From a bacterium (GTDB lineage Bacteria > Hydrothermota > Hydrothermia > UBA1063): DNA of 33,243 nucleotides. The DNA lies in the NCBI GenBank assembly GCA_030019025.1, contig JASEFR010000023.1:1-33243 (forward strand), in the 5' to 3' direction. A model generated the notes under the pieces. That model did no database searches and was not told the DNA's origin. It worked only from the letters and a program-made list of their open reading frames with translations. Shown here in pieces: positions 6,350 through 20,101 of the stretch. Both the position numbers and the translations under genes were made by a program. Position 1 is the stretch's first letter. The number at the start of each line of letters is the position of its first letter.

Positions 6350-9300
6350 TCACCCCTTTTTGCCTACAATAAATCTTACTCTTTTAACTATAGCCTTACC
6401 ATCAATTTTAAAAACCGCTTTTAAAGTATAAATATCGGTCCCCAGATCACCCACAAAAATGGGCTTTTCCTCTACCACCCCGCCATTAAAATCGAAACTC
6501 GCTTCTCTTATTTTCTTTCCAGAAAAATCGTAGAGGGTAATATTTAGTTTTCCCCCTTTCTGCACCTTAAAGCGGAAGGTTAGGTATGGTGTAAATACAG
6601 GATTGGGATAAACATACGCAAGAGAAACAAGTTCCTCCTGTGAAGGAACTGCGTCAGAAATTTTTGATAAGACTTCGAAGGGATTGTGTGCCGAAGAATA
6701 GCCGAAGTGTCTCCACGCACTTCGCAAAGTTGGGAGCGGGAAGGCATAAATATAGCCATCTGAGGTAATGTATATGAGTTCCAGTATGTCATCTTTATTA
6801 ATATCTTCTAAGAATGGATTAGAATTGAGCCCCTTTGAAACGGGATAATAATTCATTGAATCACGTTGCAAATAGCCGTAAACATGTATTCCCCTATCTG
6901 TTGGCAGAATAATTTCTTCAAAGCCATCTCCATCCAGATCTGCAAGTAAAGGTTGAAATGTTCTTGTTGTATCAATACTTTTGGGAAATTTACTAATTGG
7001 TGCAAGTTCTTTACTCACTGCAACGAGATATCCTTTGCTTACATAAACGATGTCCTCGTTTCCATCCGCATCTAAGTCGCCTATTGCAATTCCATTCAAA
7101 GGATATTCGGCAAACCTGCGTTTATTTAAAACTTCGCCCATTTCATTACAAACTTTTAATTCGCCGAGCCCGCTTACTGAGATTATCCTGTAGTCTCCAC
7201 TTGTGGAATCATAAATAAGTACTGGTGAACATGCTGATGGGATTAAGTTGAAAGAATCAACCTCATAGGTTTCAAACCTGTCTGTCAGGATTAAAAGTCT
7301 TCCATCGTAAGATTGATAAAACAGGAGAAAGCCGTTTGTTGCTGGCACATTTAGTGCAGGAGCACCGGTATTTAAGACAAACAGAATATCTCCGCTGGAT
7401 CTAAGAAGGTAGTATTTGTTGTCCAATAGCCCAACTCCCAAAACCTTTTGGCCGCTGAATTCAAATATGGATGGCACACTCACTATCTCTTCAGGCATGG
7501 TCTTGCTAAATACGATGTCAGGCTTACCATCGTCGTTGGAATCTTTTGTTGTATAAAGAATTATTTTCCTATTGTTTAATGCACAGAGAAAGTCCAAATT
7601 CCCGTCATCATTAGCATCTTCAATGGCAGGTTCTTTAATGAAACGTTCATCTTTTAAAGTATCGGTCAAGATCACAAAGCCCTGGTAGCTTACAATAGAA
7701 ACCAATCCAAAAGAATCAATAATAGTTGTATCTAAGGTTGAAAGGTCAACTGATTTTCTGTAAATGTTCTGTAAAGCGACAAGCAAAGTATCCTTTCCTT
7801 CCAGAAAGCTTTCGTATGGTTCATCAATAATCATCCGTGATGAATTGGAATCAACGACACTGTATCCTATTCTTATCGGAAAAGGTGAAAGGGTATTTTC
7901 AAGTCTCACTTTAAACTTCATCTCGTAGCCTTTTTGAGAAATATCAAAAATTTCAATGTAAGTTTTGTTACCCTGGTTGTCAACGGAGGATGGCAATGTT
8001 GTTGAGGATATTGCAGTGTTGTTTCCTTCAAAGTAGAGATCATACGGACTACCAAACCAGCAATAAGAGTATGGTGTGAAATCCCAGTTAAAGCGCTGAA
8101 AATCCTGAACATGGTCAGCTTCAAGAATATAGACGCCCATGGGCCTTACAGCATTGACAGTATTGGTTGGGTAGTTCCTCCAAAGGATATCATCATCTGC
8201 GTGGAATACCAGTAGCCCATCTCCGGGAAGAAGATAATCATTTTCGCCTCTAAAATCCACAACCACACCATTGCTCCATCGTCCGGAAACTCTTATGGTG
8301 TCCCCGCAATTCTCAAAGTCGTTCGACTCAATATTGGTTGCTAAATTTTGCACCAAGAAATACTCTTTTGAATTTATTGGAATTTTTACAATCCTGGGTT
8401 TTGAAAAGGGATCTTCCAGAAAATTACCATGAACATAATAAAGACCTGATGAAGTTTTCTCCATTACAAAGGAATCTGCGGGAATCTGAAGAGGGAAAAG
8501 GCTTACTTCCTGAAATACCTGCCCAGGTTTTACCGTAATGACAACATTTCCATCAAGGAAACCTTCTCCATAAATGACTCTCAAAATAAAATCCATAAAT
8601 ATTCTTTCCCATGCATTAGGAAAAGGAGGGATAATCCCTGACGGAACGCCTTCGGCTTCGAGATATGGGCCTGTTGTCATTATACCAAACGCACCGATGC
8701 CAGCACCCCTTCCGTAGGTATCGTAAAGGTCAGGCAATAAAAACAGATTGTGTCCGCTTTCGTGGAAAAGTGTTCCCTGTAATTTAACTTCGAGCCCATC
8801 TTGAGACATGGTTTCCGGCAAAATGCAGGCGTCGTACAAGGTATCTCTTCCGTTATTTAATACGAGATAGCTTCTTCCCAAGTAATATTCAAGTGCTCCC
8901 GGTGGTATTGTGACTGCCGCAAGATCGTAAGGGGTATCCCCGATCCAGTCCGTCTGCCATGCAGACCCAGCATGAAAGATTATATATCTCACCCAAATGC
9001 CTTCAAGGTAATCTTTAATACCATTTCCATCAAGGTCTTCGAAAGAAATTGTTGGATCCTCGTCCGCTGATCTAAAGGCATCCCTTAAAAATGTTACAAG
9101 ACCAAGCTCCATTTGGGTTGTATCACCATAATATGCAATGGGATGGGGTACCTTATATGCGGGCAAACCCGAATCAGGTTTTACAATCCACTCAAGCCTC
9201 ACTTTACCAAAGGTCGCAGCGTAAACATAGGATGCAAGAGCCCTCATCTGATTGTTAAAGTAGGTCCAGTCATGGGGAGGGTCATAGTAAGGATTGTAAT

Positions 9301-9652
9301 ATGGCCTACCATTACAATCCAAGCCAATTATAGGATTCTCTTCATTTGGGGTTTCCCGAAAAAGGCCGTTTCCTGTGGTTCTCGGATCATCTGGAATTTC
9401 TTCTTCAAACTCAACCCTCAGGGCAAGAACCCTAATTACAATTTGCTGTTTATCTTTGAGATTTTTAGAAAAATTCTTTACTTTTTGGAGCCCAGGATGA
9501 AATTCAGGATTTGTCAATCTAAACCTTGAAAAAACACTCTGAACCACCGCCTCTTTTTGATAAAAGTCTCTTAAGAGTCTTTGTTCTCTGTAAGGTTCGT
9601 AAATTTTATGCGGCATAAACCAATAGTTCGCTAAAAGAAACAATAACAACAT
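6350..9652 (-). CDS. Secreted M6-family metalloprotease with FG-GAP-like repeats and Por/T9SS-like C-terminal domain
   Basis: This is a large exported protease of about 1100 residues. A short hydrophobic N-terminus (MLLLFLLANYW) probably serves as a signal peptide. The zinc motif HESGHNLFLLPDLYD starts near residue 297 and matches immune-inhibitor-A/M6 peptidases. There is one extra residue between the second His and the Asp, compared with the common HExxHxxGxxD spacing. Around residues 860-1000 are FG-GAP/VCBS-like repeats (GDLDADGNEDIV, ADLDGDGFEEI, EDINKDDILELI), typical of beta-propellers. The last 85 residues start with VYPNP and have the Ig-like pattern of type IX (Por) secretion C-terminal sorting domains. 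I prefer the ATG at 9652, behind AGGGGGAG, because the promoter predicts a transcript starting near 9667, about at the GTG of 9668-9670. Six bases separate it from pfkA, an odd pairing of exported protease and glycolysis. Confidence 0.9.
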   Translation of the reverse strand: MLLLFLLANYWFMPHKIYEPYREQRLLRDFYQKEAVVQSVFSRFRLTNPEFHPGLQKVKNFSKNLKDKQQIVIRVLALRVEFEEEIPDDPRTTGNGLFRETPNEENPIIGLDCNGRPYYNPYYDPPHDWTYFNNQMRALASYVYAATFGKVRLEWIVKPDSGLPAYKVPHPIAYYGDTTQMELGLVTFLRDAFRSADEDPTISFEDLDGNGIKDYLEGIWVRYIIFHAGSAWQTDWIGDTPYDLAAVTIPPGALEYYLGRSYLVLNNGRDTLYDACILPETMSQDGLEVKLQGTLFHESGHNLFLLPDLYDTYGRGAGIGAFGIMTTGPYLEAEGVPSGIIPPFPNAWERIFMDFILRVIYGEGFLDGNVVITVKPGQVFQEVSLFPLQIPADSFVMEKTSSGLYYVHGNFLEDPFSKPRIVKIPINSKEYFLVQNLATNIESNDFENCGDTIRVSGRWSNGVVVDFRGENDYLLPGDGLLVFHADDDILWRNYPTNTVNAVRPMGVYILEADHVQDFQRFNWDFTPYSYCWFGSPYDLYFEGNNTAISSTTLPSSVDNQGNKTYIEIFDISQKGYEMKFKVRLENTLSPFPIRIGYSVVDSNSSRMIIDEPYESFLEGKDTLLVALQNIYRKSVDLSTLDTTIIDSFGLVSIVSYQGFVILTDTLKDERFIKEPAIEDANDDGNLDFLCALNNRKIILYTTKDSNDDGKPDIVFSKTMPEEIVSVPSIFEFSGQKVLGVGLLDNKYYLLRSSGDILFVLNTGAPALNVPATNGFLLFYQSYDGRLLILTDRFETYEVDSFNLIPSACSPVLIYDSTSGDYRIISVSGLGELKVCNEMGEVLNKRRFAEYPLNGIAIGDLDADGNEDIVYVSKGYLVAVSKELAPISKFPKSIDTTRTFQPLLADLDGDGFEEIILPTDRGIHVYGYLQRDSMNYYPVSKGLNSNPFLEDINKDDILELIYITSDGYIYAFPLPTLRSAWRHFGYSSAHNPFEVLSKISDAVPSQEELVSLAYVYPNPVFTPYLTFRFKVQKGGKLNITLYDFSGKKIREASFDFNGGVVEEKPIFVGDLGTDIYTLKAVFKIDGKAIVKRVRFIVGKKG

Positions 9653-9673
9653 TAACTCCCCCTTTTGCACTTA

Positions 9674-18380: not shown

Positions 18381-19046
18381 TTAGTTACCTTCGATACTAC
18401 TAATTACGAGTTTTATGTCGTGCAATAGGTGGGCAGGATTTTTGATTGGGAAATGCAATTTCTCTATGATATCTTCAGAAGGCAGATTTTTAATTTTTAA
18501 ACCTGCAAGTCTTTCTCTAAGAAGAGAACTGTCTTCGATCGGATATTTTATACCCTTCGTGCATTTTAGAACCGCATATGCCCATGGTATATCAAGGGCT
18601 TTAGTAATATCCTCAGCGGCCATGCCGTAATAAAGAACTAAAGTCTCAGCATCATTACCATCTTTAACCATTTTGTAAGCGAGCTTTGCGATCCCTCCAG
18701 CAGTGTGGACCTTCATTTCTCTAACTTCTTCCTTCGCAAGATCTTCAAGTTTTTTAATCTTTTCCATAGCAAGGGTAGGATCAGCTCTTAAGATATTCCT
18801 TACCGTGTTCCTCGTAAGTCCAACTCGTCTGGCTATTTCATCTTCTGTTTTTAGATATTCATCTCTCAGGACCACAACGTAAGCAGCTCTTGCCAGACTT
18901 GGAAGCCATGTGAGGGTCCTATACTCTGCCAGTTTGTTTAGCCCTCCAAGGAGGTCTATAGCCTTGAAAAAGACCCGGCTTACCAAATATTCAAGGTCTT
19001 TTTCATTCATTTCTGTTTGTGGTAACCCTGTAATTTCTATAACCAT
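18381..19046 (-). CDS. Predicted HTH regulator paired with KaiC-like ATPase
   Basis: This 221-residue protein carries a helix-turn-helix at about residues 66-88 (EIARRVGLTRNTVRNILRAD) followed by a conserved block KVHTAGGIAKLAYKMVKDG. The pattern matches the family often called probable regulatory domain-containing protein (COG4800 as I recall), found in archaea and thermophilic bacteria beside KaiC-like ATPases. The N-terminal 60 residues, including GGLNKLAEYRTLTWLPSLARAAY, are also conserved in that family. It has no membrane segment. The ATG at 19046 has a full AGGAGGT that overlaps the stop codon of the KaiC-like gene, so the pair is translationally coupled. It probably binds DNA; its target and ligand are unknown. 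The gene ends in a convergent gap with the acyl-CoA synthetase. Confidence 0.85.
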   Translation of the reverse strand: MVIEITGLPQTEMNEKDLEYLVSRVFFKAIDLLGGLNKLAEYRTLTWLPSLARAAYVVVLRDEYLKTEDEIARRVGLTRNTVRNILRADPTLAMEKIKKLEDLAKEEVREMKVHTAGGIAKLAYKMVKDGNDAETLVLYYGMAAEDITKALDIPWAYAVLKCTKGIKYPIEDSSLLRERLAGLKIKNLPSEDIIEKLHFPIKNPAHLLHDIKLVISSIEGN

Positions 19047-19049
19047 GAT

Positions 19050-19925
19050 CTAACCTCCTATTGGCTCACCAATTTTTACAAGACCTGTATCGGTGATTTC
19101 AAGGAAATGAGTTTTTGTATCATGACCAGACATTCTACATCCATCTATTCTGAACAATCTTACAATTTCACCCAATTCTTTTTTATATAATCTCGCCTTA
19201 TAAATCGAATCAATCAATTCTTTAGCCAGAACCATGGTTCCATCTACTATGTGCCCTACCGCATATCCGCCAGCCGCTTCAGCAGTCAATTCTTCATGTC
19301 CGCTTCTTTTTTGGGATACAAATAGAGCAGTCTGATACCACTTTTTCATATAATTATACATCCTCCTGACCACTGCCCGTGCCATCATTTCCTTATTTTC
19401 AAAGAGTCCAGTTATTGAGTCAACTATCGTAAATTTAACTTTATAGGTTTTGATTACATAACTTAGAGTTGCAAGCAACTCAGGTATATTTTCCCTAATC
19501 CGGGTGGAAGAAGCTGCGTCTATCAGAATTATATTATCCTGAAACTCATCAAAATTTAAACCCATTGCTATTGCCCTTAACCTTAGCGAAGCGACCACAA
19601 AATTTGCAGGCGATTCTACAGTAATAAAAGCCACTTTATCGCCTTTACTTGCCCTATACACGGTAAATTGTTCTACCATCAGAGATTTTCCCGTATCCGA
19701 AACCCCCGTAATATTCATCACAGAGTAAGAAGGAATCCCTTCTAAAGATTTCTTCTCGAGGCGATTCTTTACAGATTCCACTATGTAAAATAGGTCATCG
19801 AGCCCTTCAATTCCAGTAGCAACTCCATAGATTTCGGGTGCTTTTTCAAGTGCCTGAGAACCTGTATAAACAGCGGTTAGATCAGGCTCTATTTTTTGCT
19901 GTTCTTCTCTATATTCTTCAGGCAT
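19050..19925 (-). CDS. KaiC-like RecA-superfamily ATPase, single domain
   Basis: This 291-residue single RecA/KaiC-fold ATPase has Walker A GVSDTGKS at residues 74-81. A VES motif (103-105) stands where KaiC has its catalytic glutamate pair, and Walker B is KFTIVDSIT with D169. LFVSQKRSGHEELTAEAAGGYAV follows, and the C-terminus contains IDGCRMSGHDTKTH. That last segment and the FYIVESV region before Walker A are features of the archaeal-type single-domain KaiC relatives, not of cyanobacterial KaiC, which has two domains and KaiA/KaiB partners absent here. So it is probably a signalling or DNA-related ATPase, not a clock component. The ATG has AAGGAGTGAG upstream and is transcribed from its own strong promoter. 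The HTH regulator starts four bases after its stop. Confidence 0.88.
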   Translation of the reverse strand: MPEEYREEQQKIEPDLTAVYTGSQALEKAPEIYGVATGIEGLDDLFYIVESVKNRLEKKSLEGIPSYSVMNITGVSDTGKSLMVEQFTVYRASKGDKVAFITVESPANFVVASLRLRAIAMGLNFDEFQDNIILIDAASSTRIRENIPELLATLSYVIKTYKVKFTIVDSITGLFENKEMMARAVVRRMYNYMKKWYQTALFVSQKRSGHEELTAEAAGGYAVGHIVDGTMVLAKELIDSIYKARLYKKELGEIVRLFRIDGCRMSGHDTKTHFLEITDTGLVKIGEPIGG

Positions 19926-20101
19926 AACTCACTCCTTTATTAAATATTAATCTAGAGTCATCGTAAAATCAAAGGCTTTATTAATCGCACTTTACAAAGT
20001 TGACTTCAAACAGCCTTTAATGTAATTTGGTAAATTCTTAAAATAATACTAAAGCCTATTGCTACCCTGAGTGCTTTTTAAGCATTAAATCATATTTAGA
20101 T
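19926..20101. other. Longest non-coding stretch: KaiC-like gene upstream region
   Basis: This 176-base gap holds the KaiC-like promoter at 19944-19972. Upstream of its -35 box are short inverted motifs: AAAGGCT (from 19971) with AGCCTTT about 40 bases further, and ACTTTACAAAGT (19990-20001). They could be operators or chance in AT-rich DNA. TGCTTTTTAAGCA near 20080 is a weak hairpin just after the ABC operon end, without a following T run on the minus strand. I see no ORF or RNA gene. Confidence 0.5.
19944..19972 (-). promoter_or_regulatory. Promoter for the KaiC-like ATPase/regulator pair
   Basis: On the minus strand, -35 TTGATT (19967-19972), a 17-base spacer and -10 TAATAT (19944-19949) predict a start near 19937. 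That leaves a short leader carrying AAGGAG before the ATG at 19925. Confidence 0.65.

Follow-up and report, generated by a model that had tools for sequence, protein, structure and literature searches.

A KaiC-like ATPase and its helix-turn-helix partner in Hydrothermota, a candidate regulatory pair associated with reverse gyrase in thermophilic bacteria

A two-gene locus in a bacterium of the phylum Hydrothermota (class Hydrothermia) raises the question of what a KaiC-like ATPase does beside a putative DNA-binding protein. The locus lies on contig JASEFR010000023.1 of assembly GCA_030019025.1, of which positions 1 to 33,243 were analyzed and are called the window here. Two tandem minus-strand genes, 3 nt apart, encode the KaiC-like ATPase (19050-19925) and then a helix-turn-helix (HTH) protein (18381-19046). 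The initial annotation described the ATPase gene as overlapping, through its stop codon, the Shine-Dalgarno sequence of the second gene. Read on the minus strand, the junction is ATA GGA GGT TAG ATC ATG: the Shine-Dalgarno AGGAGG of the HTH gene (19054-19059, minus strand) does lie within the final ATPase codons, with the ATPase stop codon between it and the HTH start, but the genes themselves do not overlap. The unit holds no other genes, as had been claimed. On the same strand, an ABC-exporter operon begins the upstream flank at a distance of 176 nt; the downstream neighbor, 87 nt away, is a convergent gene for an acyl-CoA ligase. The 1.73 Mb genome has one copy of the ATPase gene. Elsewhere in the window (6350-9670, minus strand) is encoded a 1106-aa protein whose likeness to a T9SS-dependent M6-like inactivated metalloprotease falls below the curated cut-off and which carries a weak type IX sorting tail.

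Transcription of both genes from one promoter, also proposed in the initial annotation, is plausible only. The upstream intergenic stretch (19926-20101, minus strand) contains a candidate promoter, TTGATT (19972-19967), 17 nt, TAATAT (19949-19944), which fits 8 of 12 consensus positions, and TTGACT-17-TATTAT occupies the equivalent place in the congener G003; however, a scan for consensus promoters and terminators performed at chance level and gave no site in this stretch.

The ATPase (291 aa) has a single KaiC-like RecA-fold domain and is a member of NCBIfam TIGR03878 (thermo_KaiC_2), scoring 449.5 bits against a cut-off of 232.2 over model positions 1-258 of 259. Its score against TIGR03877 (thermo_KaiC_1) is 57 bits, below the curated cut-off of 307. 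Also rejected were the archaellum ATPase ArlH/FlaH (38 bits; curated cut-off 215) and the recombinases RadA and RadB (22 and 27 bits; curated cut-offs 259 and 172). The motifs previously singled out (GVSDTGKS, VDSIT and IDGCRMSGHDTKTH) are all present and largely invariant among 37 homologues. In the Walker A motif GVSDTGKS (aa 74-81; 19683-19706, minus strand), G74, D77, T78, G79 and K80 are invariant, as are D169 and S170 of the Walker B motif FTIVDS (aa 165-170; 19416-19433, minus strand) and E104. The C-terminal IDGCRMSGHDTKTH motif (aa 260-273; 19107-19148, minus strand) has the invariant pattern IDGCR..GHD (D261, G262, C263, R264, G267, H268 and D269) and presumably occupies the place of the KMRGSxHD-type motif of KaiC.

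The predicted structure of the ATPase (pLDDT 88) matches PH0284 and the KaiC CI domain with TM-scores of 0.80-0.86 by target length. Such a fold would be expected of a KaiC-type clock component; however, the protein has one KaiC domain instead of two in tandem, scores 28 bits against a circ_KaiC cut-off of 546, and is partnered by an HTH protein and not by KaiA or KaiB, which makes a clock function very improbable.

The HTH protein (221 aa) consists of a near_KaiC_dom domain (aa 31-129; 18660-18956, minus strand), which scores 128.3 bits against TIGR03879 (cut-off 65.1), and a C-terminal domain. The helix-turn-helix (aa 68-87; 18786-18845, minus strand) is predicted from AlphaFold helices at residues 68-75 and 79-87, Pfam HTH matches being below cut-off. 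The conserved HTAGGIAKLAYK block reported for this protein is present (aa 114-125; 18672-18707, minus strand), and 42 homologues share H114, A116, G118 and A123 without exception; judged from this conservation, it is a candidate contact surface. The predicted protein is nearly all helical (pLDDT 86, pTM 0.62), and sequence and fold searches of the PDB gave no significant match. There is a weak resemblance to ParB in fold and sequence, all ParB matches being insignificant.

The initial annotation called this pair uncharacterized; both genes are in fact already modeled by TIGR03878 and TIGR03879, with scores far above cut-off. Besides scoring above the TIGR03879 cut-off, the HTH protein is encoded next to a KaiC-domain gene, 3 nt downstream of it. 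The model name, near_KaiC_dom, records this closeness, and pairing with KaiC-domain genes had thus been noticed before.

How far the pairing extends was determined from 108 homologous ATPase loci, six of which end too early to judge. Among the 102 informative loci, the HTH gene lies directly downstream of the ATPase gene in 75, on the same strand further downstream in six (mostly with one gene between) and in reversed order in one; 20 loci have no HTH gene. The claim that the genes form a two-gene module is borne out by this adjacency. Spacing is 30 nt or less in 65 of 74 cases, ten of which overlap. Within Hydrothermota, 28 genomes have both genes, one the ATPase only, two the HTH gene only (at a contig end in one of them) and 70 neither, and among 136 Aquificota genomes the ATPase occurs in 114 and the HTH gene in 116. 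Where the two are unlinked (in Aquificaceae and part of Hydrothermia), the HTH gene is usually elsewhere in the genome. Because of the scores to curated families (449 and 128 bits) and adjacency in 75 of 102 loci, the pair is real and conserved beyond chance.

The surroundings of the pair vary. A KaiC-HTH-DUF505 trio occurs in seven loci from relatives of the class (L002, L012, L014, L015, L020, L023 and L029), DUF505 (PF04458; identity checked on L014) being directly downstream of the HTH gene, and in three of them (L002, L023 and L029) a Clp-like ATPase gene is divergently upstream. Between the KaiC and HTH genes there may be an AIM24 gene (L006, L009) or a gene for an SDH-type ClpP-like protease (L008). 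A gene named from its sequence as SMC-like follows the pair in seven Thermodesulfobacteria loci (L044, L045, L055, L056, L061, L068 and L077). A Nitrospirae metagenome-assembled genome (L098, 9367-10876) has the HTH gene first, overlapping the KaiC start, so that the order is reversed yet coupled. The pair also occurs on a megaplasmid of Thermomicrobium roseum (NC_011961.1, 256639-257918; L236), where the two genes overlap by 4 nt and the HTH protein has 127 aa; this was the only match in a plasmid search, and a phage search gave none.

In certain lineages the next gene encodes reverse gyrase (rgy), a link absent from the initial annotation. When neighbors were clustered, rgy came directly behind the HTH gene in loci of the Persephonella type and of Campylobacterota, and overall 18 of 80 named loci have rgy behind the HTH gene on its strand. 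It was recognized from sequence; TIGR01054 hits at these positions and an alignment with the rgy of the window genome confirm the identification. The gap between the HTH gene and rgy is 52-64 nt in the Persephonella-type loci (n = 5). In each of the 12 Campylobacterota KaiC-HTH-rgy operons measured, the end of the HTH gene and the beginning of rgy share exactly 4 nt; these operons are translationally coupled. Most lineages have SMC, DUF505 or unrelated genes next to the pair, and not rgy.

The two also coincide at the level of genomes. Counting genomes above curated cut-offs, the 198 Thermodesulfobacteriota comprise ten with both ATPase and rgy and 188 with neither, the two sets of ten being identical; ATPase and rgy are far apart in these genomes, and linkage does not account for their co-occurrence. 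Among 200 Campylobacterota, ten have both, none the ATPase only, two rgy only and 188 neither (Fisher p = 3e-15). The corresponding numbers are 22, 7, 6 and 66 in Hydrothermota (p = 4e-11) and 108, 6, 15 and 7 in Aquificota (p = 1e-3). These three p values are uncorrected for relatedness and overstate independence, since genomes of one phylum share ancestry and not all are complete. Within Hydrothermia alone (20, 7, 4 and 9) the association is weak to modest (p = 0.015). Some but not all of the genomes that have one of the two and not the other (the ATPase only in seven Hydrothermota and six Aquificota, rgy only in others) are incomplete assemblies. The ATPase is near-exclusive to genomes bearing rgy in these four phyla. 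One Hydrothermia genome without the KaiC and HTH genes (G014) has degenerate rgy fragments with internal stops (C22:2908-3930), and a joint loss of rgy, KaiC and HTH is possible there.

Where the pair in the window came from can be read from gene trees. In that of the ATPase, the window protein and that of G003 group with Sulfurihydrogenibium yellowstonense, Thermocrinis and one Caldimicrobium (starred support 96), and 25 other Hydrothermota members form a separate group (starred 99). The HTH tree has the same grouping (supports 97 and 100), and the agreement of the two trees indicates a shared history. The initial annotation suggested that the genes were perhaps acquired from archaea, and distant relatives do exist in archaeal control genomes; yet both genes nest, with starred support, inside the hot-spring Aquificota group, to which they are 86% and 73% identical, and it is scarcely credible that an archaeal KaiC-regulator pair was recently acquired. 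In a scan of genome contigs, the best 80 of 309 matches were all bacterial. The history is one of transfer among hot-spring bacteria, and the position of the window genus inside an Aquificota-rich group suggests the direction.

The rgy of the window genome lies on another contig (C40:1321-4740) and is not in an operon with the pair. Its identity to that of Sulfurihydrogenibium is 70%, whereas no member of its own class that was compared exceeds 61%, and it nests with Sulfurihydrogenibium in the rgy tree (support 100). In a survey of Aquificota likeness over 0.77 Mb sampled from the genome, the ATPase, the HTH protein and rgy had the three top identities (86, 73 and 70%) among 87 places, the median being about 37%, with a query set richer in these three families than in others and favoring them. 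None of the three genes is present in the congeners G001 and G002. Separate loci with one apparent donor lineage would fit selection for a three-gene set.

A regulatory ATPase with a DNA-binding partner is the most likely reading of the pair. KaiC-family precedents include partner proteins regulated by nucleotide or phosphorylation state (PMC13286277). The ATPase, probably a RecA-type hexamer, would bind the HTH protein of its operon, and its nucleotide state would set the DNA-binding activity of that protein. The output may be heat-dependent control of rgy and perhaps of a few chromosome-topology genes, with heat or energy state as the putative input; in Nautilia profundicola, rgy is heat-induced over 100-fold (PMC2628731). 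That the pair is a thermophile-specific, ATP-driven switch acting on a regulator of reverse gyrase or topology genes appears to us about evenly balanced. For such control of rgy count the co-occurrence of ATPase and rgy in four phyla, the operons that join them, the Sulfurihydrogenibium-like lineage of all three genes in the window genus, the KaiC-type fold of the ATPase, and the reported heat induction of N. profundicola rgy and of the P. furiosus pair described below. Against it count the genomes with the ATPase and no rgy, or rgy and no ATPase, the distance of the pair from rgy in most lineages, the weak association within Hydrothermia, and an HTH model without a confident structural match.

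Reverse gyrase is described as unique among proteins in occurring in every hyperthermophile and in no mesophile (PMC6878951), and as a standard marker of hyperthermophily it would be tracked by any thermophile-specific gene. The pair might accordingly be a general thermophily module that serves another heat or energy response and accompanies rgy since both are kept at high temperature. Its separation from rgy in most lineages fits this explanation, as do the DUF505, AIM24, SDH-type protease and Clp-type ATPase genes among its neighbors; the exact ten-for-ten match in Thermodesulfobacteriota, the 4-nt coupled operons in Campylobacterota and the acquisition of pair and rgy from one donor lineage in the window genus do not. 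We consider it a real possibility, though well short of even. Alternatively, the HTH protein might load or position the RecA-like ATPase on DNA, the complex acting physically with reverse gyrase or SMC and not through transcription. The position of SMC downstream in the seven Thermodesulfobacteria loci and of rgy in others, the RecA-type fold and the likeness to ParB point that way, but the ParB matches are all insignificant and the KaiC-family precedents are regulatory, so that a direct chromosome factor is improbable.

Returning to the regulatory reading, its strongest form, in which KaiC-HTH is a dedicated bacterial control unit for reverse gyrase, an ATP-driven thermal or energy gauge that would set positive supercoiling at high temperature and be inherited and exchanged with rgy, is tentative and rather unlikely. 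If it were true, the signature of bacterial hyperthermophiles would be a three-gene system and not one gene. No tie between KaiC and reverse gyrase was found in the literature searched, where one paper names both, in unrelated passages (Makarova et al. 2017 was outside the search). As far as the papers covered go, control of reverse gyrase in bacteria seems to be unexplained, and the pair is a concrete candidate for it, open to genetic and biochemical tests, which gives two curated families of no known function a testable role.

The pair and both families were already known, and what is added is a testable link to reverse gyrase in particular; the locus is ordinary as family membership and informative as a lead. 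The window ATPase is a full-length member of TIGR03878, with no essential difference from it, and the HTH protein is a member of TIGR03879 that adds a C-terminal domain of about 90 aa, which some relatives (the 127-aa T. roseum protein, L022 and L026) lack; neither family has an assigned function. The ATPase has its fold in common with cyanobacterial KaiC and PH0284 (PDB 2dr3), but identity is only about 20-24% and family scores are far below cut-offs. A similar kind of pair, with consecutive gene numbers, is found in the extended Phr heat-shock regulon of Pyrococcus furiosus: heat shock strongly induces the KaiC-domain protein PF1931 and the predicted regulator PF1932, which have Phr motifs and are predicted Phr targets (PMC10746257). 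The likeness to the window pair is one of description, and PF1931/PF1932 could be members of a sister family, for example TIGR03877. KaiC-like ATPases have also been proposed as hubs of archaeal signal transduction (Makarova et al. 2017, mBio e01959-17, as cited in PMC13286277); in that proposal, as far as it is represented there, KaiC ATPases control partner regulators, as the window ATPase may control its HTH protein.
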